NCBI GenBank assembly: GCA_038734945.1
Contig: JAVYOA010000009.1
Location: 1 to 64,000, forward strand
From: Fervidicoccaceae archaeon
Lineage (GTDB): Archaea > Thermoproteota > Thermoprotei_A > Sulfolobales > Fervidicoccaceae
DNA length: 64,000 nucleotides
Reading direction: 5' to 3'
The stretch's first letter is position 1. The number at the start of each line of letters is the position of its first letter. The translations under genes and the position numbers were made by a program. The notes beneath the pieces are model-generated. The model searched no databases, was not told the origin of the DNA, and saw only the letters and a list, made by a program, of their open reading frames with translations. Of the stretch, positions 23,801 to 42,889 are shown one piece after another.

Positions 23801-25222
23801 TTATGCTTCCTTGAACGCTTTTGCTAGCGGTATATACAGAATGAAGTTCAGCACTACTCCTATGTACCAGCTCAGATTCGTCGGCCACGGTATTGGTCCT
23901 GTCCAGGATATTTGTCCAATTGCCCAGCTGAATAGATAGGTTATCAGTATCGTTAGAACGTATGAGACTATTGCAGCATATGAATATCCTCCGTGGTACC
24001 AGTATCCCTCAGGTCCCTTTGTATATAGCTTCTGCAGGTCATAGCTTCTCTTCTTCAACAAGTAGTAATCAGCTATCATTATTCCTCCGATTGGTCCCAG
24101 TATTATGCCGTAGTTAGATGAGAAGGCAGTGACATAGTTCACTATTCCTGGTCCGCTATCAACTGCCCACCATGGCGCTAGGAAGAATCCTATGATTCCA
24201 GAGCCTATAGCAGCCCACTTTATAGGAAGCCTCAGCGTTGAAGTCAGTATGTTTATTGCTGCGGGTATGTTGGCTGTTATGTCTGTGCTGAACGGTGCCG
24301 CAAATGCGAAGATCTCCCCTAGGAGCATCGCCAAAGCACCTGGTGAACCATACAGAATGATCTCTTGTGGAGTTACCCTGCCTGTATATACTGAGAGGTA
24401 ATATCCAAGGAGAGATCCCACAATCTGCCCAACAACTATTCCCAATAAAGGTCCTATTATTAGAGCGTTGACTCCTCTTTTGTCAGCATATAGACCTCTT
24501 GACAAATCGCTTATATTGAGAGCTACTGTTGCCCACCAATTTGTTTGAACAGCTAAGTATATTGCGAACGGCATTGAGAAATATGAAACTCCTGCCGGCA
24601 CCTGTTCTACCGGAGTCCTACCGCTCAGGTAGTAAAGAAGCCATATGAAATAAAGGACGATGAGAGGTCCAGCAACGTCCACGAATCTAGCTATTGCTCT
24701 CAGTCCTTTCCACATAACGAAGGTAGCTAGGGCAACGTAGGGAAGTACGATTATTCCAACATATCTGAATGATGCTGCCGATATGAGCTCAGGATTTCTC
24801 CCTCCATATCCTAATGCATAGAGCAATATCATTATTATCGCAAGGCTTCCGTTATAGGCTTCAATCCCATACCATCCGAAGCCGACAATTCCTCTCAGAA
24901 CCACTGCGATCTCAGCTCCTCTGAATCCCCATGATGGCCTTAGCTGCACTGGATATGGTATTCCGTACTTCACTCCCACGATTCCGTTAAGCCAGAGAAC
25001 TACAACTGCAGCAAAGTTACCAACAGCAGCTCCTACAGCTACCTGCACTGGCGTTAAACCGAGGTTCAGACCTATTACTCCAAGGAAGAACATAGGTATA
25101 CAGACGTTCAGACCGAACATCATCCATGAGAATGATCTGACGCCATACAGCCTTTTATCAGACGGCATTGGCAAAAGTACTGGGTTCTCCTTATATCCCT
25201 TTGGTTCAACATTCCCACTCAT
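23801..25222 (-). CDS. NCS1-family nucleobase/allantoin/hydantoin-type permease
   Basis: Twelve-helix transporter of the nucleobase-cation-symport-1 family (cytosine, allantoin, hydantoin, uracil carriers). Typical features: the N-terminal PMPSDKRLYGVRSFSWMMFG, the QLRPSWGFRGAEIAVVLRG helix, WYGIEAYNGS, a QTNWWATVALNISDLSRG helix and the late MIADYYLLKKRSYDLQKLY loop. ATG 25222 follows GGTGG at a suitable distance; an in-frame ATG at 25273 adds 17 residues but lies just below the TATA-like box. The substrate is not decided by sequence; a ureide is attractive given the fdrA-type operon 13 kb away. Confidence 0.88.
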   Translation of the reverse strand: MSGNVEPKGYKENPVLLPMPSDKRLYGVRSFSWMMFGLNVCIPMFFLGVIGLNLGLTPVQVAVGAAVGNFAAVVVLWLNGIVGVKYGIPYPVQLRPSWGFRGAEIAVVLRGIVGFGWYGIEAYNGSLAIIMILLYALGYGGRNPELISAASFRYVGIIVLPYVALATFVMWKGLRAIARFVDVAGPLIVLYFIWLLYYLSGRTPVEQVPAGVSYFSMPFAIYLAVQTNWWATVALNISDLSRGLYADKRGVNALIIGPLLGIVVGQIVGSLLGYYLSVYTGRVTPQEIILYGSPGALAMLLGEIFAFAAPFSTDITANIPAAINILTSTLRLPIKWAAIGSGIIGFFLAPWWAVDSGPGIVNYVTAFSSNYGIILGPIGGIMIADYYLLKKRSYDLQKLYTKGPEGYWYHGGYSYAAIVSYVLTILITYLFSWAIGQISWTGPIPWPTNLSWYIGVVLNFILYIPLAKAFKEA

Positions 25223-25277
25223 ACTCAGATTACCACCACAGTTTGTGAATTCTAATAATGATAGATCTACCATTAAT

Positions 25278-31679: not shown

Positions 31680-33089
31680 ATGGTCGAGCTAATATCGTTG
31701 TTGAGGGTGGATATCTTGGGCCTGGATTTCTTCTTCCGGCCGAGGAGCATAGCTGTTGTTGGAGCTTCAGGAGATCCGAGCAAGCTAGGTCACGATATAT
31801 TCAAGAATCTCATTTCTTATGGAGGAAAGGTATACCCTGTGAATTTGAAAGAGGCAGAGGTCCTAGGAAGAAAGGCGTACAGAAGTGTAGGAGAAATTGA
31901 TGATGAAATTGACCTAGTAGTAATTGCTGTTCCAAGACAGCATGTTAGGGATGTGGTTAGGGAGAGCGGAATAAAGGGAGTTAAGGGGGCCATAGTTATA
32001 ACTGCTGGCTTCGGAGAGACAGGCGAGGAAGCCTGGAAAAAGGAGGAGAGGGAAATAGTTAATGAAGCGAGAAAGTGGGGAATTAGAATTATTGGACCTA
32101 ACTGTGTTGGAATCATGAACACCTCTGTCGGGCTCAACGCAACATTCATAATGTCGGCAAGACAGGGAAAAACAGATTTCATATCACAGAGCGGAGCTCT
32201 TGGAGCAGGTATTATCTACAAATTCGTGAAGGAGAAAGTTGGGATTTCAAGGTTTGTCAGCCTTGGAAACATGGCAGATATCGAGTTTTCAGATCTCCTT
32301 ATTGACTTTTCTGAAGACAGCGAAAGCAATGCTATTGTTCTATATCTCGAGGGAGTGAGAGATGGGAGAAGGCTGATTGAATCGATAAGGAAGGCTACAG
32401 AGAAAAAACCAGTCATCGTGATTAAGGGAGGAAAAGGGGCCTCATCCTCAGAAGCTGTATCCTCGCATACAGGAAGCATAGCGGGCTCCTGGGAAATATA
32501 CAGAGCAGCCCTTCGTCACTCCGGTGCAATAGTCGCGAAGACAATCGATGAAGCCTTCTCAATGGCAAGAGCCTTCTCGCAGCCATTGCCCAAAGGAAAG
32601 AGAGTTGGAATAATTACTAATGCCGGGGGAGGGGGCGTTCTTGTCTCCGATGAGCTCGAGGAGAGAGGTCTCCAAGTTCCCAGGCTCTCTGAGGGGACTG
32701 TAAGAGAGCTGAAGACATTTCTCCCACCTTTTGCTTCGTTCAGAAATCCAGTAGATATGATAGCTAGTGCCAGAGGGGAGGACTACAGAAGAGCAATGGA
32801 TTTAATGTTCCAGGAAGATTCTGTCGACATCATTGTAGCTATTTCAGTTGTTCCTACGTTCGGCGGAATTAGCAGGGATGAGCACGCAAAGGGGGTCATC
32901 GATTCCGTCAGAAAGTGGGGAAAAAAGAAGCCAGTCATCGCATTGTTCATGGCAGGAGACATAAGTTCTCCATCCAAGGAGATTCTTGAAGCAGAGGGGA
33001 TACCAGTCTATGAGAGGCCGGAGGATGCAGCAGCAGCAGTCTGGGCCCTTCATGAATTCTCCCGAATGAAGAGAGGCGAAGGAGCTTGA
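31680..33089 (+). CDS. Acyl-CoA synthetase (ADP-forming), alpha subunit
   Basis: Makes ATP from ADP and phosphate while releasing a carboxylic acid from its CoA thioester, an energy-conserving step of archaeal amino acid fermentation. CoA-binding Rossmann region FFRPRSIAVVGASGDPSKLG, GPNCVGIMN, SQSGALG, and the phosphoryl-acceptor His in SHTGSIAGS are present. 469 residues matches the separate alpha subunit; the beta (ATP-grasp) subunit is not in the window. The gene overlaps iorA, so the usual partner reaction is aryl-acetyl-CoA formed from aromatic amino acids. Confidence 0.93.
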   Translation: MVELISLLRVDILGLDFFFRPRSIAVVGASGDPSKLGHDIFKNLISYGGKVYPVNLKEAEVLGRKAYRSVGEIDDEIDLVVIAVPRQHVRDVVRESGIKGVKGAIVITAGFGETGEEAWKKEEREIVNEARKWGIRIIGPNCVGIMNTSVGLNATFIMSARQGKTDFISQSGALGAGIIYKFVKEKVGISRFVSLGNMADIEFSDLLIDFSEDSESNAIVLYLEGVRDGRRLIESIRKATEKKPVIVIKGGKGASSSEAVSSHTGSIAGSWEIYRAALRHSGAIVAKTIDEAFSMARAFSQPLPKGKRVGIITNAGGGGVLVSDELEERGLQVPRLSEGTVRELKTFLPPFASFRNPVDMIASARGEDYRRAMDLMFQEDSVDIIVAISVVPTFGGISRDEHAKGVIDSVRKWGKKKPVIALFMAGDISSPSKEILEAEGIPVYERPEDAAAAVWALHEFSRMKRGEGA

Positions 33090-34969
33090 GTGAAAGAATC
33101 CTCATAGATCCTAATCCTCAGAAGCTCCTCTTATTGGGAAACGAGGCCATAGTCAGGGGAGCTCTGGAGGCAGGCCTTGACTTCTTCGCTGCCTATCCAG
33201 GTACTCCCAGCAGTGAAATCTTAGATGCGATGTTGAGCTTGGCAGATTCTGTTGGAATCTATGCAGAAGTCTCCGTGAACGAGAAGATCGCCTTTGAGTC
33301 CTGTCTGGGAGCATCGTGGAGCGGTCTGAGGGCTATGACCAGCATGAAGCACGTTGGATTAAACGTAGCAGCAGATTCTCTCATGAGCTCTGCTGCCATG
33401 GGCACAAGAGGAGGGTTCGTCTCAGTCGTGGCTGATGATCCAAATATGTGGAGCAGCCAGAATGAACAGGATACCAGGCTCTTTGCCAAATTTGCAAATG
33501 TTCCCCTAATAGAGCCTTCTTCTCCTCAGGAAGCTCTCGATCTCACTAAGAGGGCTTTTGAGCTCAGCGAAAAATATGGAACACTCATCATATTGAGAAC
33601 TACAACTAGGCTCTCCCACACAAGAGGGGACGTGAGGACCGGTTTCCTTCCCCAGAAAATTATTGAGGGAAAAAGAAGAGTAGGAGAGTTCAAAAAGGAT
33701 CCTTCTAGATTTGTTAGCCTTCCCCAGAACTCCAGAAGGCTGAAGGTAGAACACGCTTCTGTTGTTAAAAGACTAGAAAAGGAGGAAGGTGCGAGCTTCA
33801 TAGAACTTGAGGGAGATGAGGAGGCCAAGGTAGGCATTATAGCTAGTGGAACAGCATATGGGTATGTAAAGGAAGCATTGGAATGGATGGGATTAAGCAA
33901 AGTAAGAATCGCAAAGGTCCTCATGCCCTATCCATTGCCCAGAAATCCGCTCAAGGAAATTTTCTCTAATGTTGACAGGATCTTGATAGTAGAGGAGCTT
34001 GAACCTGTTATAGAGGAACAGGCAAAACTGCTTGCGTTTGAGGAAGGAATGAGAGTGGAGATTCATGGAAAGGACTTTGTACCAAGAGACTTTGAGCTCT
34101 CTCCAGAAAAAGTAGCTAAAGCAATCGCATCTTTCATGAAAAAGGATCTCCCAATAGACTTTGAGGAGCTGGAAAGCAAAGGGAAGGAAGCCTCCTCATT
34201 AGCTCCTCCAGTTCCACCAACACTATGTCCAGCATGCCCTCATAGAAATACCTTCTATGCTATAAGGAAAGCGGCGTCTCCTCGCTCGATTTTTCCAAGC
34301 GACATTGGATGCTACACGCTTGCCTTTTTCCCTCCTCTAAAGACCGTTGACACAACCGTTGATATGGGGGCCTCAATATCAATTGCCCATGGGATCTCGA
34401 GATCTTCCAAGGAAGAGAAGGGAAAAGCAGTAGTTGCAACTATAGGAGACTCAACGTTCTTTCATACAGGGATCCCTGCTCTGGCAAACGCAATAGCAAA
34501 TGGCTCGGATTTCATATTGGTTGTTCTGGACAATGGCACGACAGCTATGACTGGACACCAGCCAAATCCAGGAAGCACAGAGGGGACAAAGAGGAGACTA
34601 TCCATTGAGGATATAGCTAGAGCAATGGGAGCTGACTACGTTGAAGTTGTCGATCCTTATGACATTAAGTCAGTTGAGGCAGCTGTAAGGAAGGCAATGG
34701 ATGTTAGAGGAGTAAGGGTAATAGTAGCTAGGAGAGATTGCGCATTGAAGGTCATCTCCGACAAGAGGAGGAGGGGAGAAAGCTGGAATGTCTACAGAGT
34801 TAACGAAGATCTCTGCACGGGATGCAAAGTATGCATAAATGCCTATGGCTGTCCAGCCATCAAGTGGAACAGAGATAAGAGAAAAGCCTATATAGATCCC
34901 GAACTTTGCTGGGGCTGTGGGGGCTGTGCCCAGGTTTGTCCTTACAATGCTATAGAGGTGATGAAGTAA
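33086..34969 (+). CDS. iorA: Indolepyruvate ferredoxin oxidoreductase, alpha subunit
   Basis: Thiamine-diphosphate enzyme that oxidatively decarboxylates arylpyruvates to aryl-acetyl-CoA, reducing ferredoxin. The N-terminal pyrimidine-binding domain (AAYPGTPSSEILD), the thiamine-diphosphate motif near residues 445-475 (IGDSTFFHTGIPAL with the downstream DN), and two C-terminal 4Fe-4S motifs (CTGCKVC and CWGCGGCAQVC) are seen. At 627 residues it is full length. TTG 33086 overlaps the synthetase stop, and the TAA overlaps iorB's ATG. Confidence 0.94.
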   Translation: MSERILIDPNPQKLLLLGNEAIVRGALEAGLDFFAAYPGTPSSEILDAMLSLADSVGIYAEVSVNEKIAFESCLGASWSGLRAMTSMKHVGLNVAADSLMSSAAMGTRGGFVSVVADDPNMWSSQNEQDTRLFAKFANVPLIEPSSPQEALDLTKRAFELSEKYGTLIILRTTTRLSHTRGDVRTGFLPQKIIEGKRRVGEFKKDPSRFVSLPQNSRRLKVEHASVVKRLEKEEGASFIELEGDEEAKVGIIASGTAYGYVKEALEWMGLSKVRIAKVLMPYPLPRNPLKEIFSNVDRILIVEELEPVIEEQAKLLAFEEGMRVEIHGKDFVPRDFELSPEKVAKAIASFMKKDLPIDFEELESKGKEASSLAPPVPPTLCPACPHRNTFYAIRKAASPRSIFPSDIGCYTLAFFPPLKTVDTTVDMGASISIAHGISRSSKEEKGKAVVATIGDSTFFHTGIPALANAIANGSDFILVVLDNGTTAMTGHQPNPGSTEGTKRRLSIEDIARAMGADYVEVVDPYDIKSVEAAVRKAMDVRGVRVIVARRDCALKVISDKRRRGESWNVYRVNEDLCTGCKVCINAYGCPAIKWNRDKRKAYIDPELCWGCGGCAQVCPYNAIEVMK

Positions 34970-35580
34970 TGGAATACAATATAGTGATCGCGGGAATAGG
35001 AGGACAGGGAGTTCTAACGATTGCAAGGATCATAGGAGAAGCTGCTCTGCTGGAAGGCCTAAAAGTAAGAGTTGGAGAGATTCACGGTCTCAGCCAGAGA
35101 TTTGGAAGCCTGTTTGCTCATGTCAGAATGGGCAATAGTATTTACAGCGGCTTAATCCCGCTTGGGAAGGGAGACATGCTGCTATCCCTTGAGCCAGCAG
35201 AGGCACTGAGGCATTTGCAATACATGAAAAAAGGAGCAATCCTCATTTTGAATAGAAGACCCATCGAGCCTCCCCAAGTCTCCATGGAGCTCTTCAAATA
35301 TCCTTCTCTCGAGCAGATTAGGGCAATATCCTCAGAGAAGTTTGGCTTAAAAGTCCTTGAGCTCGATGCCAGAGAGATTGCCGAGAAGGCCGGAAACGCA
35401 ATTGCGCAGAACTCAGTTATGCTTGGTGCTGCCCTCTCTGCTCCAGGCATACCTATTTCAACGAAATCAGCAATCTCAGCATTGGAGAGAACTATCTCAA
35501 GGCGATTTGTAGATCTAAATATAAGAGCTTTGGAGCTTGGGATGCAGGAGGGAAGGAAGCTGCTGGAAAAAGTTTTTTGA
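34969..35580 (+). CDS. iorB: Indolepyruvate ferredoxin oxidoreductase, beta subunit
   Basis: The gamma-domain-like beta subunit, beginning YNIVIAGIGGQGVLTIARIIGEAAL, the family signature. 203 residues from ATG 34969, which overlaps the iorA stop as TAATG; an open frame upstream (from 34906) is within iorA and is not used. Together the three genes convert aromatic 2-oxoacids to acids plus ATP and reduced ferredoxin. Not obviously followed by other genes of the module. Confidence 0.94.
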   Translation: MEYNIVIAGIGGQGVLTIARIIGEAALLEGLKVRVGEIHGLSQRFGSLFAHVRMGNSIYSGLIPLGKGDMLLSLEPAEALRHLQYMKKGAILILNRRPIEPPQVSMELFKYPSLEQIRAISSEKFGLKVLELDAREIAEKAGNAIAQNSVMLGAALSAPGIPISTKSAISALERTISRRFVDLNIRALELGMQEGRKLLEKVF

Positions 35581-35643: not shown

Positions 35644-36378
35644 ATGGTCAAACCACCCGTTCCGATATCAGTCAATGAAATACCCTTCAAGGTAGAACTA
35701 ATAGAAGCATACCTCCATTCTTCTGAGGACCTTGTTGCTGGCAAGGAATATGTGCCAAAGTTATATACAACAAAGCAGGGAGACAAGATAGTTTTCAGGC
35801 TTGCCAAGAAGGAAGAAGCCCCAATAATTCTCAACACACTAAAGAAGCTGATGGATCCTCAATACGATAAGGATCTCTATCATCTGGTTGCTACTAGGGT
35901 CTACGGTGAAGTTCTCGCATGGGTGCAGTCAAGATATAAAGATGAATATGTCCTGATTGGAGTTCATGATGGAGAGCTGATAGGAGTCTGGAACGCGAGG
36001 ATGTGGAACAAGGACATAGCAATAAGCCTCCACAGCATCACGTTCAAGAGGCTGGGTGGCATTGGCACAGCAGGATATGCTGCTAAGGCGGAATATGCAT
36101 TTGAGGTCCTTGGAGCAAAGGAGTGGTGGGCAACTTTTGAAAGTCCGTTCGGATTCAGACTCGGAATGTACTTCAGGCATTACATGAAGCCCTATCCAGA
36201 GGTACAGCACGAGCTAGGAGGATCTCCCGTCTTCTACATGACAGCTGACGATTGGTTCAACTTCCACAAGAAGAGAGAGGAGCTGAAGCCATTCTTCGGA
36301 ACAAGGCCAGTTCCAGAGGATCTGCTGAAGAAGAGCTATGAGCTAAGGCCACCGCAAAAGATAGAAATAGAGATCTGA
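35644..36378 (+). CDS. GNAT-like protein, possible N-acetyltransferase
   Basis: 244 residues. A GNAT-style core is suggested by KEEAPIILNTLKKLMDP (helix after the first strand), EYVLIGVHDGELIGVWNARMW (beta4-like), IGTAGYAAKAEYAFEVLGAK (motif A-like region) and WWATFESPFGFRLGMYF. The classical Q/RxxGxG/A acetyl-CoA loop is not clear, so family membership is tentative. Long Pro-rich flanks are unlike small GNATs. It converges on the fdrA-type operon and could act in the same pathway, without evidence. Confidence 0.5.
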   Translation: MVKPPVPISVNEIPFKVELIEAYLHSSEDLVAGKEYVPKLYTTKQGDKIVFRLAKKEEAPIILNTLKKLMDPQYDKDLYHLVATRVYGEVLAWVQSRYKDEYVLIGVHDGELIGVWNARMWNKDIAISLHSITFKRLGGIGTAGYAAKAEYAFEVLGAKEWWATFESPFGFRLGMYFRHYMKPYPEVQHELGGSPVFYMTADDWFNFHKKREELKPFFGTRPVPEDLLKKSYELRPPQKIEIEI

Positions 36379-36467
36379 GCTTAAGACTACAAAGCATAAG
36401 TTTTTTTAAATTTTCAGCCGGGCATTTCCTAAGCCAGAACAGATGATATGCTAAAAGAAACAACAAC

Positions 36468-37091
36468 CTAAAAGAGCTCTTTCAGCGCATTTTCGAGGTC
36501 TTCAGGTGTATCTATATCTCTCAACGTTCCAGGATCTCCCGTTTCCACACATAAGATCCTATCTCTGTATTTTTCCACAACGCTCTTCAGCCCTCTTCCA
36601 GCTTCGCTTATTCCTTTTATCTCGTTCTGAAGCTCAGGCTTGAATATAATAGGATGAGCATGTCTTCCATTAAAACATGCTACAGTAATTGGCATGCTGC
36701 TTAGTAGGTGAGACTGTATCGTCTTTTTGATTGATGCAGGACGTATGAAAGGAACGTCACCTGGGTGTATTAAAACGCTCTCTCCTTGATTGACAATTCT
36801 CATGCCGACCTTTATTGAGCTGCTCATACCTCCGCTAGCATAGCTTGAGTTAAATGCAAAGTATACACGAGAGAGATCATCTTGATGAACTCCATTTACT
36901 ATAGCACTGAAGACCCTTTCATGGTCTCTTCCGAGGACCACGATTATTTTCTCCAATCCAGAAGCTATGAATTTTTCAACCGTATGCAGTATGATGGGTC
37001 TTCTATTTACTTCATATAGCAACTTGTTTCCTGGAAACCTCGTTGAGAGACCTCCTGCTAGTATAATTGCTGCAATGCTACTTTCTCCCAC
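36468..37091 (-). CDS. MocA/MobA-like nucleotidyltransferase (molybdenum cofactor cytidylyltransferase type)
   Basis: NTP-transferase with the loop ILAGGLSTRFPGNKLL near residues 10-25, VVLGRDHERV, IHPGDVPFIRP (metal Asp) and RDIDTPEDLENAL. 207 residues, as in MocA enzymes that attach CMP to molybdopterin for xanthine-dehydrogenase-type hydroxylases. Overlaps the XdhC-like gene by 14 bases. No molybdoenzyme is encoded in the window, so the target is elsewhere, or the protein acts on another substrate. Last gene of the operon. Confidence 0.8.
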   Translation of the reverse strand: MGESSIAAIILAGGLSTRFPGNKLLYEVNRRPIILHTVEKFIASGLEKIIVVLGRDHERVFSAIVNGVHQDDLSRVYFAFNSSYASGGMSSSIKVGMRIVNQGESVLIHPGDVPFIRPASIKKTIQSHLLSSMPITVACFNGRHAHPIIFKPELQNEIKGISEAGRGLKSVVEKYRDRILCVETGDPGTLRDIDTPEDLENALKELF

Positions 37092-37974
37092 TTTTCTCCT
37101 CTCCCCCCTTCATGATCTGCTCAATCAATGAGGGAACAGCATTCTCCTGAACCCCTTGAGCACCCCTATCGATCTTCATAATTTCGGCCATAACAGCTAT
37201 CGCTATTTCCTCAGGCGTCTCGCTTCCAACGGCTAGACCAATTGGCGAGACGAGCTTTTCCTTGATTATTCCCGGATCTATTCCACTGCTGATAAGAGAC
37301 TTCAATATATAACCGAGCTTCCCCCTTCCAGCGAGGAGTCCCAGATATCTGGGTATTATGCCTTCCTTGAAGATTTTCTTGAGCACTTCTGCTTCTAGGT
37401 TCCCATCACCGTGAACAATAACTACAAAATCATTCTTGTTTATCTTTATCCTGTCGAGCTCGGTTAAAATATTCGAGGACGCATAGATTTCATCCGCATC
37501 TGGTATTTTTTCCTTATTGGCATATTGTGGAAAGTTGTCAACGACAATTACCCTGTAGTTGAGCATTTTTCCCAGCTTAGCCAGAGGCCTAGCCACATGG
37601 CCTGCACCTATAATAACCAGCCTCTGCACGGGCTTCAAAACATCAATGAACACATTAACAACACCACCGCATAGCTGTTCAGTTGCTATGACCTCCTCAT
37701 AAAGACTTTCTCTGAAAAGAGCCACCCTTCTCTCTCCGGGCTTTCTGGTCTCTAGCACCCTCTTGGCTTCCTCTATTACCTTTCTCTCGAAGTCCCCTCC
37801 TCCTATGGTTCCAATGACGTTCCCATCCTCGTCAATGAACATCTTTGTCCCCGGTCCCCGAGGTGCCGACCCTGCTTTCTTTGTTATCTCTATCATGGCA
37901 ACAAGCTTTCCTTGCTCGAGCCTCTCTAGCACCCATCTAAAGAATACAGGGTCACTTGGATACTCACCCATCAA
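37078..37974 (-). CDS. XdhC/CoxF-family protein (molybdoenzyme accessory factor)
   Basis: XdhC-type chaperone that sulfurates or inserts the molybdenum cofactor in xanthine-dehydrogenase-like enzymes. N-terminal XdhC domain (GSAPRGPGTKMFI, GTIGGGDFERKV, a CGG in EQLCGGVVNVF) and a Rossmann domain (VIIGAGHVARPLAKLG near residue 133). 298 residues. Its 5' end overlaps the DUF2877 gene by 11 bases and its 3' end the MocA-like gene, so these genes are one transcript. Confidence 0.85.
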   Translation of the reverse strand: MMGEYPSDPVFFRWVLERLEQGKLVAMIEITKKAGSAPRGPGTKMFIDEDGNVIGTIGGGDFERKVIEEAKRVLETRKPGERRVALFRESLYEEVIATEQLCGGVVNVFIDVLKPVQRLVIIGAGHVARPLAKLGKMLNYRVIVVDNFPQYANKEKIPDADEIYASSNILTELDRIKINKNDFVVIVHGDGNLEAEVLKKIFKEGIIPRYLGLLAGRGKLGYILKSLISSGIDPGIIKEKLVSPIGLAVGSETPEEIAIAVMAEIMKIDRGAQGVQENAVPSLIEQIMKGGEEKSGRK

Positions 37975-38824
37975 CCGGCATCACCTTGCACACATGCTCC
38001 AAGAACAAGACTCTTCGATATTTATATATGCTGTAGGCAGTTATAAGTCCTAGCCATATATATAAACCACTATCGTGCCCCCTTCTTAGTAACTGCAGAA
38101 AAAGATCATATGCATCCTGCTCATCTCCCCGCAGCAGGGATACGGCACTATCTAGGACTAGCTCATCCAATAAACCCATTGAGGCATATTTGATATATTG
38201 AGAACTGGCCCACGAGGTTCTTCTCAAAAGCTCTTTATCTATCTTTGGGAAATAACTCTCATCAAATGAAGCGCACTTTCTTGCAATGCTGAAAAGAGAG
38301 AGCATTCCAGCGAGAAAGTCGTCGCCAGAAGGAGTGAATCCACCTCCGGCTCCAATTATCTCTTTCAGAGCACTCCCCGAAGTTAAAAAGTCCCTGTTCT
38401 TGCATATCCTTCTCATTGTCTCGGAGCCGAAGAAATTGTTCCACGCAGTTGAGAGAACTACAAATGCTCCTTTGAGAAATTTGAAATCCTCCTCCTCAAT
38501 TCCTCTGCACTCCTCAATCTCTGGTTCTTTCTGTCTATACAGCTCAGCTTCCGTTAGAAGTATCTTAGTGCTATTGCCTCTTATGGCCTCAGAGGTAACC
38601 TCGAGAATTTCGCCAGGCAGGAAAAACGTATCGAGAGGAGATAAGGGGACATTTATGGTAAACGGAGATCTCCATCTGTGGGCAGAGATTAAAACAAGGC
38701 CATCGTCTTTTATGTTTCTCAAGTAAACAGTTGTTCTAAAAACATGTTCAATTTTGAAAAGGGAGGTTTGGAAAAAAAATATATGGGAACCATAGCTCGT
38801 TGCTTTGATCTCTCTCCAGTACAT
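37964..38824 (-). CDS. DUF2877 family protein (YlbF/AllH-like)
   Basis: 286 residues with the family motif GAGGGFTPSGDDFLAGML near residues 165-182, also seen in E. coli YlbF (AllH). E. coli FdrA, YlbE and YlbF (AllFGH) are reported to constitute an oxamate carbamoyltransferase in allantoin degradation; this knowledge is from the family, not from this sequence. The gene lies directly behind DUF1116 with an 8-base gap. It overlaps the XdhC-like gene. Subunit role is inferred. Confidence 0.8.
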   Translation of the reverse strand: MYWREIKATSYGSHIFFFQTSLFKIEHVFRTTVYLRNIKDDGLVLISAHRWRSPFTINVPLSPLDTFFLPGEILEVTSEAIRGNSTKILLTEAELYRQKEPEIEECRGIEEEDFKFLKGAFVVLSTAWNNFFGSETMRRICKNRDFLTSGSALKEIIGAGGGFTPSGDDFLAGMLSLFSIARKCASFDESYFPKIDKELLRRTSWASSQYIKYASMGLLDELVLDSAVSLLRGDEQDAYDLFLQLLRRGHDSGLYIWLGLITAYSIYKYRRVLFLEHVCKVMPVDG

Positions 38825-38832
38825 TACCCTTT

Positions 38833-40098
38833 TTACGCTCCGTACTTCTCAACATATGCCTTGAATGCGTCCTTGAATAGCTCAAACGGAAACTTGACTA
38901 TCCCTGCTCCAACTTGCCCTATACCAGCCTTCTTGTGAGCTATCCCTGTATTGATTGTTGGAGTTATTCCTGTCTTCAGCACGTATCTGATATCTATTCC
39001 AGTTGGCGTTCCCTGGAACCCCAAGTAGGGTATTGTGAAGTATTTGTGCTTGCTATAAGTTATATTATACATGTTCTTCGTGTTCTCAACAGCGAACTCC
39101 ACCGAGCCGCCAACCCAGCTTACCACTGCAGGAGCTGCTGCCATCGCAAATCCACCAAATCCAGCCGTCTCGGTTATCGCGCTATCTCCTAGATCTGGAT
39201 TGGCATCATCCTGTGTAAATCCAGGGAAGAACACTCCCTTCGGAACAGGAGCTGGTGCTGTGAACCATCTATTTCCCAGTCCGCTAACCCATATTCCTGC
39301 ATCTGTACCATTTCTGGTTAGGACAGTGACTATAGTGCTATATTCTATGTTGTGAGCAGCCAACGTCATTGCTTTCGCTGAAGCCATTCCTATATTCAAT
39401 GTGAAGAAATTGTTATTCTTCATGAACTCCCATACTCTTGAGAACACATCCTTGGGCACATCTGCCCTCACGAGATATGTTGCTATTTCGTTCATGAACT
39501 TGCTAGTTGCAGCAACATATCTATTGTGGCACTCGTCTCCCATATGGAGAGCCTGCTGGATTATCGACTTGAAGTTTATGCCACCCTTATCCTTTCTGGC
39601 CTCATCCAGTGCTGCCTTCAGTGCAGGATAAAGTTCATTCCTCATCCAATTCAGCCTAGATATGACCTCGCTGTCATAAGCTCCATACCTGAGTACTTTT
39701 CCTATACCCTCATTATAATTGCTAAATGCTCTGTTGCCGAATTTTTTATCTTCAATAATATAGACTGGCATGTTGAAGGAAATAACACCAGCCATCGGAC
39801 CAACAGCATTGAACTCATGATTTGGTCTAAGTATTACTTCTCCTCTCTCTACAAGCTTTATTGCTTCCTCCTCACTTGATGCCTTCCCCTCATATATCAA
39901 AGCACCAATTATTGCCCCCTTCATCGGACCAGAAGCTCTTTCCCAGGTTATTGGGGGACCTGCATGGATTAGCATATCCTCTTTCAGACCAGGGATAGCA
40001 TCCTTTGCTAATTTTGTATCCACTAAATATGGCTCTGCTTCCATCATTCTTTCTACTGCCTTTTTGTTTGCCTCCTCAATTTTTTCCTTAAGAGACAT
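38833..40098 (-). CDS. DUF1116 family protein (YlbE/AllG-like)
   Basis: About 421 residues with DUF1116 features: the N-terminal HAGPPITWERASGPMKGAI, ALHMGDECHNR with conserved Cys-His, WVSGLGNRWFTAPAPVPKG, ITETAGFGGFAMAAAP and the late GIDIRYVLKTGITPTINTGIAHK. The frame opens at TTG 40116, but GGGGCGTGAG just before ATG 40098 makes that start likelier. Same family as E. coli YlbE/AllG. Third protein in a likely carbamoyltransferase complex with FdrA and DUF2877. Confidence 0.85.
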   Translation of the reverse strand: MSLKEKIEEANKKAVERMMEAEPYLVDTKLAKDAIPGLKEDMLIHAGPPITWERASGPMKGAIIGALIYEGKASSEEEAIKLVERGEVILRPNHEFNAVGPMAGVISFNMPVYIIEDKKFGNRAFSNYNEGIGKVLRYGAYDSEVISRLNWMRNELYPALKAALDEARKDKGGINFKSIIQQALHMGDECHNRYVAATSKFMNEIATYLVRADVPKDVFSRVWEFMKNNNFFTLNIGMASAKAMTLAAHNIEYSTIVTVLTRNGTDAGIWVSGLGNRWFTAPAPVPKGVFFPGFTQDDANPDLGDSAITETAGFGGFAMAAAPAVVSWVGGSVEFAVENTKNMYNITYSKHKYFTIPYLGFQGTPTGIDIRYVLKTGITPTINTGIAHKKAGIGQVGAGIVKFPFELFKDAFKAYVEKYGA

Positions 40099-40135
40099 TT
40101 TTCTCACGCCCCTCAAATTATGAACTTTTAAAAAA

Positions 40136-40306
40136 CTAGAGTAGATCTGAGAGCTTCTCCGCCAGCTCTTTTTCGAGCTTTGGCGGAGGCTGGTAGTTCA
40201 CCTGGACAGCCTTCACGCCCTGCCTCTTGAGATCCTCATAGAATATTCTTAGCCCTACATTTATTACTTTCAAATCTTCATCGAATAGTTTTCTTGCTTG
40301 AGACAT
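40136..40306 (-). CDS. Small protein between fdrA and DUF1116 genes (56 residues)
   Basis: A complete short ORF, ATG 40306 to TAG 40136-40138, beginning MSQARKLFDEDLKVINVGLR. It starts 5 bases after the fdrA stop with the fdrA GGAAGGTGAT stretch as a plausible ribosome binding site, and ends 37 bases before the DUF1116 start. Its core (VINVGL ... FYEDLKRQGVKAVQVNYQPPP) resembles, from memory, a short segment found at the ends of bacterial FdrA or DUF1116 proteins; here it is a separate gene. Likely a small subunit; function unknown. Confidence 0.7.
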   Translation of the reverse strand: MSQARKLFDEDLKVINVGLRIFYEDLKRQGVKAVQVNYQPPPKLEKELAEKLSDLL

Positions 40307-40311
40307 GCATA

Positions 40312-41955
40312 TCACCTTCCCTGCTTCATATATGCCTTGAGATATTCTTCATAGAGAACATCGAGCTTCTTGCTATCCAAATTTCCTCTCAGGGCAGCAG
40401 TTGCTGCCGCCAAGGCCGATATCGCGTTTGTTGGATAGACAAGCACACCCTCCGACTCCAGCTTTCTCACCTGCTCCTCAAATCCCTGGGGGTCTTCCTT
40501 AACTCCCAACACATAGCCTATGATAATGAGATGCCTACCATCTCTCTCAGCTATTCTCTTTGCTTCCCTTATAGCATCCAGATGAGCTCCTGCAGGATCT
40601 GGGTGACTTCCATATCCGAGCACGAAGTCCATTAGTATAACAGCAACTTCGGGATCCTTAGCTTCATCTATAAGTCTTATCCTTCTGATGGTTGGATCTA
40701 TCATTGGATGCGCTCTGCCAGCAGTAAATTCTTCCTCTCCTAGATCCACTACCGTATTGCCAACGCTCTTGAAAGGATCTTCGAGCTTTCTCTGTCCCTT
40801 TAGTGGGGCATTGCTGTATATCTCTATTCCAAGGAGATCGAATATCATTAGAGCCTCGCTGGTAAGCGTGCCTCCTGTATATAGTGCCCTAATGTACTTC
40901 TGCGAGCTTTTCAGCTTTTCATAATGCGGCTTAAGAGAATCTCTCAATTTCCCAAAAGGTATTGTGTATTTTTCCCATATCTGTTCATATGTTGATTGTG
41001 AAACCAATCTAACAGCTTCAAGTGCCGTTGCGTGCAGAGTTCTAGCGACACTTACCCTTTCTCCCATTCCTTCAGGTATCCTCATATCAACCTTTCCCAT
41101 GAAGCCAAGAACGATGGGCTTTTTTGTGTTCTCGGCTGCAAAATTAAGTATAGAGTCCAGCGTTTCCTGCTGCGGCGGCTTTGATACTATTGTGATTATC
41201 TTTGTGGAAGGATCCCTCTCCAGATAGAGGAGAGAAAGCTTAGTCATTAGCCCCCCCACATAGTTCTTAACATCTCCTCCCCCAACTCCTAGCCCATGAG
41301 AGATTCCAAGACCCATGTTATGAATTAGTGAACTCACTTCCTGAAGACCTGTTCCTGCTGCTGCTATTATTCCAATTGGTCCTCTCCTCACGGCGTTTGC
41401 GAATGCTATGGCTTTTCCATTGATTATTGATGTTCCTGCTCCAGGTCCAAGAACGAGAAGACCTCTCTCATAAGCGTATTTTTTCAGCTCAACTTCATGC
41501 TCCTCAGGAACATGGTCGCTGAACAAATGGACATGGATTCCTCTTTCGAGAAGCTTCATAGTAACGTCCCTAGCATATTCCCCTGGAACCGAGACTATAG
41601 CCAAGTTAGCGTCAGGCAATGCGCTAATTGCTGATTCCAGGTCGAGGTACTCCATTTCTCCACCAGATACCGGGGCGCTCAGAAGCTCCCTTGCTTTTGC
41701 TAATGCATTATCCAGCGAAGCATTGTCCTTCGCAGCAATAGCAATAAAGAGATCAGAATCACCGGCCTTTTCAACTTCAGGAAGGAGAAGTCCGAGCTGC
41801 TTGGCTATTTCCTTGTTGGTTTCAGTTCCCATTGCCACGATAGCTTCGAGAACCCCGCTGAGCTTTTTCAGCTCCTCGCTTATTTTCATGAGCTGAAGAC
41901 TATCTCTCATAAGGTTCTTTTCAACTATAACCCCACTTACTCTATCCTGCGACAC
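40312..41955 (-). CDS. fdrA: FdrA family protein (AllF-like, acyl-CoA-synthetase-related)
   Basis: 547 residues, built like succinyl-CoA synthetase alpha/beta but without ATP-grasp. Features: DLESAISALPDANLAIVSVPGEYARD, LVLGPGAGTSIINGKAIAFAN, the GIIAAAGTGLQEVSSLIHNMGLGISHGLGVGG loop that holds the family's phosphate-binding region, and ALYTGGTLTSEALMIF. In E. coli FdrA (AllF) is reported as a subunit of oxamate carbamoyltransferase. Second gene of the minus-strand operon, 50 bases behind the cyclase gene. No carbamate kinase lies within the window. Confidence 0.85.
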   Translation of the reverse strand: MSQDRVSGVIVEKNLMRDSLQLMKISEELKKLSGVLEAIVAMGTETNKEIAKQLGLLLPEVEKAGDSDLFIAIAAKDNASLDNALAKARELLSAPVSGGEMEYLDLESAISALPDANLAIVSVPGEYARDVTMKLLERGIHVHLFSDHVPEEHEVELKKYAYERGLLVLGPGAGTSIINGKAIAFANAVRRGPIGIIAAAGTGLQEVSSLIHNMGLGISHGLGVGGGDVKNYVGGLMTKLSLLYLERDPSTKIITIVSKPPQQETLDSILNFAAENTKKPIVLGFMGKVDMRIPEGMGERVSVARTLHATALEAVRLVSQSTYEQIWEKYTIPFGKLRDSLKPHYEKLKSSQKYIRALYTGGTLTSEALMIFDLLGIEIYSNAPLKGQRKLEDPFKSVGNTVVDLGEEEFTAGRAHPMIDPTIRRIRLIDEAKDPEVAVILMDFVLGYGSHPDPAGAHLDAIREAKRIAERDGRHLIIIGYVLGVKEDPQGFEEQVRKLESEGVLVYPTNAISALAAATAALRGNLDSKKLDVLYEEYLKAYMKQGR

Positions 41956-42004
41956 TATTTCTCACCTATGAATAGCGAAAAAGAGGAAAAAATTTTTAAA
42001 AAAA

Positions 42005-42889
42005 TTACTCAGGACCATTACATATCGCGAATATTCTTGCGAAGGCCGATTCTGCTCCTTCCACCTTAATTGGTGCTCCAGATATGAGGCAGCGCTTGTT
42101 TAGAACTTTTGATATCTCCCCTCCGAGGTTCTCAGCATGCAGCACTCCTCTTGGGAAAGTGTATGTGTGAAGCACCTGGTAGTTCTTTGGCCACGGCATC
42201 ACTTCGTCAACAGACTTTCCAAACTTCTCCTTGAAGAGATCTGCAATATCTGGTCTAACTCTCCTAATAACTGTATCGAGCGGGTGGTCCTGGCTTATGG
42301 CATCTACACCAGTCCACTTGAGCTGCTTCTTAACACACCACTCAGCAAACTCAGCAGTAGGTCCGGGATGCATTAGCTGATACCTCACAGTATCAGCGGT
42401 TGGCTGATCCCATTGATACTTGTGATATCCCGTGTGAATAATCAAAATATCTCCTGGCTTCAATTCGAGGTTGTGCTCCTTCAGCTTCCTCTCAATCATT
42501 TCCGATGTGTATATACTCAGATCCTCCACTTCATCACTTATATCAACGATCACTCCTTCTCCAACAAAATGGTCAAGAGGAATCATGTCTATTGATGGGG
42601 CTCCAGGGTCAAAATGAATTGGACCATCCATGTGTGTTCCGATGTGCCACGCAGTTTCAATAGCCTGCGCTTGGACTTTGTTCTCAGGAAGAGTCTTTAT
42701 CCAGTACATCTTGAATGGTGGATATGTTGGAAAGGGCGGCGCATATATACCGAGGGGCTGACTCAAGTCGTAAATTCTTGCCTCGTCCCAATTAATGAGC
42801 TTGCTCCACTTGTATTTTGGTTTTGGTATGTATGCCTTTATGTATGGTTTTTCCAACCTAGAAGAATAGTTTATGCTCAATTCCATCAC
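42005..42889 (-). CDS. Cyclase-family metal hydrolase (kynurenine formamidase/isatin hydrolase type)
   Basis: 294 residues of the Pfam Cyclase family: the metal-binding signature ETAWHIGTHMDGPIHF (HxxTHxDxPxHF) near residues 84-99, VVDIS-type strand, PGDILIIHTGYHKYQ and GVDAISQDHPLDT. Relatives hydrolyse amide bonds of cyclic or N-acyl compounds. As first gene ahead of fdrA it may open the ring or release the substrate of the carbamoyl-transfer pathway. Two ATGs at the start. Confidence 0.85.
   Translation of the reverse strand: MMELSINYSSRLEKPYIKAYIPKPKYKWSKLINWDEARIYDLSQPLGIYAPPFPTYPPFKMYWIKTLPENKVQAQAIETAWHIGTHMDGPIHFDPGAPSIDMIPLDHFVGEGVIVDISDEVEDLSIYTSEMIERKLKEHNLELKPGDILIIHTGYHKYQWDQPTADTVRYQLMHPGPTAEFAEWCVKKQLKWTGVDAISQDHPLDTVIRRVRPDIADLFKEKFGKSVDEVMPWPKNYQVLHTYTFPRGVLHAENLGGEISKVLNKRCLISGAPIKVEGAESAFARIFAICNGPE

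Follow-up and report, generated by a model that had tools for sequence, protein, structure and literature searches.

The question raised by this locus is which reaction an archaeal set of carbamoyltransferase-like genes carries out when it shares an operon with genes for a cyclase-family hydrolase and for the maturation of molybdenum enzymes. The window, by which we mean the whole stretch of 64,000 nucleotides that was analyzed, belongs to contig C9 of a Fervidicoccus-like genome of 1.34 Mb that is 99.95% complete, and its closest named relatives by AllG identity (91–92%) are one Fervidicoccus MAG and one Thermoprotei MAG. The original prediction described a seven-gene operon on the minus strand, and all seven open reading frames are indeed present between 36468 and 42889, in the order given there and closely packed (Table 1). 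From the cyclase gene to the MocA-like gene, the intergenic gaps are 49, 5, 19, 8, -11, and -14 nt (negative values denote overlaps), and we therefore treat the seven genes as one tight operon. The interval delimited by the original prediction starts at 35644 and thus also takes in a plus-strand gene that was left undescribed, while the 56-aa protein within the operon was left unexplained.

Table 1. Genes of the operon and its convergent neighbor, with positions in the window and the matches on which the assignments are based
Feature	Position	Strand	Evidence
Cyclase-family (PF04199) metal-dependent hydrolase	42005..42889	-	PF04199 128 bits
FdrA/AllF-like large subunit, succinyl-CoA synthetase-like fold	40312..41955	-	NF004760 397.5 bits (curated cut-off 433); Pfam CoA-ligase domains
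56-aa free-standing module	40136..40306	-	blastp; NF004760 positions 505-553
AllG (DUF1116) subunit	38833..40116; likely start ATG 40098	-	PF06545 295 bits (Pfam cut-off 27)
AllH (DUF2877) subunit	37964..38824	-	PF11392 61 bits (Pfam cut-off 25)
XdhC/CoxI-family molybdenum-enzyme maturation factor	37078..37974	-	PF13478 107 bits, PF02625 69 bits
MocA-like molybdopterin nucleotidyltransferase	36468..37091	-	PF12804 (MobA-like NTP_transf_3) 96 bits; TIGR03310 126 bits (cut-off 186)
GNAT-fold protein, convergent to operon	35644..36378	+	AF2/Foldseek; neighbors of AllG loci

The assignment of FdrA, DUF1116, and DUF2877 to the families of Escherichia coli AllF, AllG, and AllH holds, as AllG and AllH score above their Pfam cut-offs and the family-invariant residues are kept. 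In alignments of 71–90 relatives that also contained the E. coli proteins, FdrA retains 64 of the 65 columns conserved at 95%, AllG all 98, and AllH all 13 conserved columns, including the G-x-G-x-G-x-TP-x2-DD motif. FdrA aligns with positions 5–491 of the 555 in the NF004760 profile, scoring just below its curated cut-off, and is without the C-terminal module of ~50 aa that is present in E. coli AllF. FdrA also matches the structure of E. coli FdrA (3dmy) with 233 bits, and AllG that of a relative (3clq) with an E-value of 1e-120; the AF2 model of AllH is confident (pLDDT 93), and a fold search with it against the PDB returned no match at E<0.1 and nothing informative. In E. coli, purified AllFGH makes carbamoyl phosphate and was described in 2024 as the oxamic transcarbamylase, OXTCase (PMC11326118). 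Because AllG and AllH lie far above their cut-offs and share their conserved columns with E. coli AllFGH, the archaeal proteins would be expected to produce carbamoyl phosphate as well.

The C-terminal part of NF004760 that is missing from FdrA (positions 505–553) corresponds to the separate 56-aa open reading frame. By blastp, this small protein resembles both the C-terminal module of E. coli AllF (residues 509–554) and the N-terminal module of E. coli YahG (residues 1–53), the latter being its best match in E. coli. A profile search of AllG loci found the module free in 29 and fused to the N-terminus of AllG in 59, with four more probable fusions: it is free in archaea, attached to AllG in most bacteria, and attached to the C-terminus of AllF in E. 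coli. That the 56-aa frame arose by chance can be rejected, since the module occurs at all AllG loci examined except five, nearly all of which are truncated by contig ends. Given these three fusion states of one module, we argue that the 56-aa protein is probably a fourth subunit, which in E. coli is contained in AllF, and the fusion pattern predicts that this subunit is obligatory.

The original prediction noted that neither the carbamate kinase nor a molybdenum hydroxylase lies in the window, and searches of the whole genome located both outside it: four large subunits of molybdenum hydroxylases and a single carbamate kinase (C1:170798-171733), which is unlinked to the operon and scores 382 bits against a curated cut-off of 358, so that absence of the kinase from the genome is rejected. 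Ornithine transcarbamylase (OTC) is also encoded in this genome; the kinase may therefore have a place in other routes as well, and OTC alone could explain it. Among 300 Thermoproteota genomes, the kinase tracks AllG: it is found above the cut-off in 16 of the 18 genomes with AllG versus 48 of the 282 without (Fisher p 4e-10, a value that, like the other kinase/AllG p-values, ignores descent, the 18 genomes spanning eight family codes), and near-full or split copies occur in 18 of 18 versus 79 of 282. As an aside, the carbamate kinase gene next to AllG at one locus (L026 of genome G147, C4:151148-152049) is split in two, one piece having an in-frame stop, which is a frameshift or an assembly error. 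Homology and genome co-occurrence together make it a well-supported reading that this conserved system would generate carbamoyl phosphate in catabolism.

The other genes of the operon point to what might be broken down. The cyclase keeps 56 of 57 columns conserved among 43 relatives, and its metal motif, H82-G-T-H86-x-D88-x3-H92 (HxGTHxDxxxH), is intact. It can be placed in the broad PF04199 family alone, scoring 47 bits against the kynurenine formamidase model TIGR03035 (cut-off 223), and presumably catalyzes a ring-opening or amide-hydrolyzing step. The XdhC-like protein carries the XdhC_C and XdhC_CoxI domains and reaches 102 bits with TIGR02964, below the cut-off of 161.6; the MocA-like protein likewise stays below the cut-off of its more specific model (Table 1). 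We compared 82 AllG loci, each of at least 9 kb. The cyclase is present at 42 of them, and among these 42 a molybdenum hydroxylase is found at 32, the GNAT gene at 20, and a carbamate kinase at four. XdhC or MocA genes lie inside the cluster at just a few AllG loci. This cluster type with an adjacent molybdenum hydroxylase recurs in archaea, Chloroflexi, and Clostridia. In the AllG tree, the protein from the window falls in a well-supported archaeal clade that is mostly of the cyclase type, and E. coli AllG and YahG are placed elsewhere, on long branches. Tree-based independent pairs for the gene linkages were not significant, there being too few changes, and so the linkages are mainly between-clade patterns together with the recurrence of the cyclase and molybdenum hydroxylase in distant clades.

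Two of the four molybdenum hydroxylases in the genome (C1:18474-20912 and C9:101016-103406) are 55–58% identical to those adjoining AllG genes in relatives. The frequency of the hydroxylase at cyclase loci, together with NCS2 permeases at 29 of the 82 loci, whose nearest models are those for permeases of uracil or xanthine, argues for an oxidized nucleobase as the source of the substrate. The nearest PDB relatives of the orthologous hydroxylase are 4-hydroxybenzoyl-CoA reductase and CODH, which counts against this explanation; with PDB relatives so mixed, reading the substrate from GGGFGGK-A and nearby motifs was not decisive. An NCS1 permease lies near the operon, as had been reported (23801-25273, TIGR00800 131 bits), and it reaches 119 bits with the allantoin-permease model against a cut-off of 620.

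The undescribed plus-strand gene belongs to the AllG system. It has no Pfam or NCBIfam match, a search of a viral collection with its product found nothing, and its family has 29 members that adjoin AllG loci. Strong matches (E below 1e-49) occur in 11 of 18 AllG-positive versus none of 282 AllG-negative Thermoproteota genomes; across the 300 genomes, two marginal matches (E 7e-6 and 6e-4) fall in AllG-negative ones. Its AF2 model (pLDDT 87) matches many GNAT acetyltransferase structures in Foldseek with a probability of 1.00 and a target-normalized TM of up to 0.70, so the predicted fold is GNAT, and an acetyltransferase activity is putative. Directly upstream of this gene, the plus strand of the window (31680-35580) carries an NDP-forming acyl-CoA synthetase alpha-like gene followed apparently by two subunits of a 2-oxoacid (indolepyruvate-type) ferredoxin oxidoreductase; a similar order is seen at the locus L040 of a relative.

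In Chloroflexi and some other bacteria, genes for a thiolase and a DUF35 protein usually come next after the GNAT gene, and thiolase with DUF35 adjoins 16 loci, 11 of these with the GNAT gene. Together with the CoA-ligase domains of FdrA, this suggests CoA chemistry outside the carbamoyl phosphate scheme, and one could go further and suppose that FdrA with AllG and AllH turns an acyl-urea or acyl-phosphate into an acyl-CoA that feeds the thiolase and DUF35 protein, and that the GNAT protein has the CoA ester as its substrate. The rarity of the kinase within clusters of the cyclase type would fit such an acyl-CoA-forming enzyme, and it counts against our own preferred explanation. Nevertheless, we regard an acyl-CoA-forming enzyme as very unlikely, because the residues shared with E. 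coli AllFGH, which transfers carbamoyl groups, are kept, the kinase follows AllG at the level of whole genomes, and the operon of the window has no adjacent thiolase.

If carbamoyl phosphate is the product, the carbamoylated substrate has still to be named, and other cluster types offer a comparison. A second type, seen at 12 loci, contains a gene of the cyanuric acid hydrolase family; all 12 have a carbamate kinase and an NCS2 permease as well, and none has the cyclase or a molybdenum hydroxylase. A third type contains an isochorismatase. Barbiturase activity of the type-B AtzD proteins was considered and rejected, as the copy tested scores 488 bits with the Moorella cyanuric acid hydrolase versus 316 with barbiturase. 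At L064, L067, L071, L073, and other clostridial or bacillar loci, cyanuric acid hydrolase, an AllFGH-like core, carbamate kinase, and PucR occur together, which suggests that such clusters may phosphorolyze carboxybiuret or biuret. The archaeal operon might accordingly encode an ordinary paralog of YahEFG, a carbamoyltransferase for another ureide (e.g., biuret or carboxybiuret); the cyclase would then catalyze some other reaction, for instance hydrolysis of the amide product. FdrA is 41% identical to YahF versus 35% to AllF (blastp), which speaks for this view, as do the affinity of the small module to YahG and the cluster types in which cyanuric acid hydrolase or an isochorismatase accompanies the core. 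However, neither of these two enzymes occurs at any of the 42 cyclase loci, and a molybdenum hydroxylase recurs beside the cyclase type. A simple YahEFG paralog therefore seems unlikely to us. The E. coli yahEFG-yahI-yahJ cluster differs from ours in having an adjacent kinase and no cyclase or molybdenum-enzyme maturation genes.

The original prediction favored a purine or ureide route. Its assignment to the AllFGH family stands, with the carbamate kinase and molybdenum hydroxylases now found, whereas its allantoin/oxalurate part was not established. A true oxamic transcarbamylase would end an allantoin or purine route by converting oxalurate and Pi into oxamate and carbamoyl phosphate. Besides the identity of the protein families and the presence of the kinase, one locus in the genome (C9:191602-202972) is suggestive, where two molybdenum-hydroxylase triplets accompany an AllB/PyrC-like amidohydrolase, an aspartate transcarbamylase (ATCase), whose gene overlaps that of the last molybdenum subunit, and a nucleobase permease. 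The amidohydrolase, the sole allantoinase-like protein, scores 364 bits with TIGR03178 (cut-off 357.85), scores equally with dihydroorotase models, and is encoded a few genes from the ATCase. The ATCase has the motifs HPLP and RLQ of authentic enzymes, unlike ureidoglycine transcarbamylase with HPLA and AIA, AIS, or SIA (PMC4016543), which rejects it as a ureidoglycine transcarbamylase and makes PyrB and PyrC the simple reading of the two proteins. On the other hand, PyrF was not found in the genome, the sole OMPdecase-family match (C9:405911-406534) being a hexulose-6-phosphate synthase and thus rejected as proof of pyrimidine synthesis; the amidohydrolase and ATCase therefore need not be biosynthetic, and a lone ATCase might run backwards to carbamoyl phosphate.

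A relative from Anaerolineae (L099:161-12960) has OTC/YgeW-like, AllB-like, and AllD-like genes next to AllFGH, the cyclase, and an NCS2 permease, possibly a full allantoin-type cluster, and it lends the oxamic transcarbamylase some further support. What weighs against it in the present genome is that no match to the Ldh_2 family, and hence no AllD, was found (genome-level absences rest on family searches), that the cyclase has no place in the E. coli route, that FdrA is nearer to YahF than to AllF, and that the ATCase is authentic. Compared with E. coli AllFGH and AllK, the archaeal system thus shares the three families, their conserved residues, and a kinase in the genome, and it differs in the separate 56-aa module, the cyclase, XdhC, and MocA genes in the operon, the unlinked kinase, and the lack of AllD. 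We consider an oxamic transcarbamylase in the strict sense rather doubtful, if less so than the YahEFG paralog.

We thus suggest, as the probable explanation, that the operon encodes an AllFGH-family transferase producing carbamoyl phosphate in the catabolism of an oxidized nucleobase. FdrA, the small module, AllG, and AllH would form a four-part carbamoyltransferase working in the catabolic direction. A molybdenum hydroxylase with genes outside the operon, for whose maturation XdhC and MocA of the operon would serve, would oxidize a nucleobase, and the ring of the nucleobase would then be opened by the cyclase-family hydrolase to a linear N-carbamoyl amide acid (R-CO-NH-CO-NH2), which the transferase would phosphorolyze to an amide and carbamoyl phosphate; the unlinked carbamate kinase would convert the latter to ATP and ammonia. 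The catalytic direction, the order of the steps, and the substrate are what we infer.

As for the substrate, we tentatively and slightly favor ureidomalonate derived from barbiturate over oxalurate derived from allantoin, to which we give a smaller chance, other ureides accounting for the rest. Carboxybiuret, the product of cyanuric acid hydrolase, is isosteric with ureidomalonate, and the cyclase occupies the place that cyanuric acid hydrolase has in the second cluster type, which argues for ureidomalonate, as does the company of a molybdenum hydroxylase and the uracil- or xanthine-like permeases. Genes for biotin-dependent (methyl)malonyl-CoA decarboxylases occur in the vicinity of 14 loci, and 11 of these loci carry the cyclase (p=0.04); the genome has a complete sodium-pumping set at C1:209713-213200 (biotin carrier, OadB-like membrane subunit, and an MmdA-like carboxyltransferase 70% identical to one near an AllG locus). 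This is a weak link to a malonate-type product, as such decarboxylases are common in amino-acid fermenters. It could be speculated, though as a whole it is hardly the likeliest outcome, that archaea and anaerobic bacteria share a molybdenum-dependent oxidative pyrimidine route from uracil or thymine via barbiturate and ureidomalonate to malonamate and carbamoyl phosphate, with ATP gained through carbamate kinase, malonyl-CoA through later steps, and a dedicated GNAT-fold protein. Barbiturate and ureidomalonate would then be common to this route and the known oxidative (barbiturate) pyrimidine pathway, which uses an AtzD-family barbiturase and ureidomalonase where we propose the cyclase and a phosphorolytic carbamoyltransferase.

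The archaeal occurrence of the AllFGH family is not new, since allFGHK genes of this enzyme family were reported in 2025 from Nitrososphaerales and comammox MAGs without upstream purine genes, linked in several genomes to biuret genes, in a text that mentions no cyclase (PMC12625717). For the cluster type with cyclase and molybdenum hydroxylase, the free fourth module, and the GNAT partner, no description was found in the literature searched, in which subscription journals are sparsely covered.

The genes for OXTCase were identified only in 2024, and the paralogous set spans archaea, Chloroflexi, and Clostridia without a worked-out pathway. If the proposed scheme is true, DUF-type proteins, including the 56-aa subunit and the GNAT-fold partner, would be given functions, and carbamoyl phosphate would be the means by which these anaerobes draw ATP from the breakdown of nucleobases.
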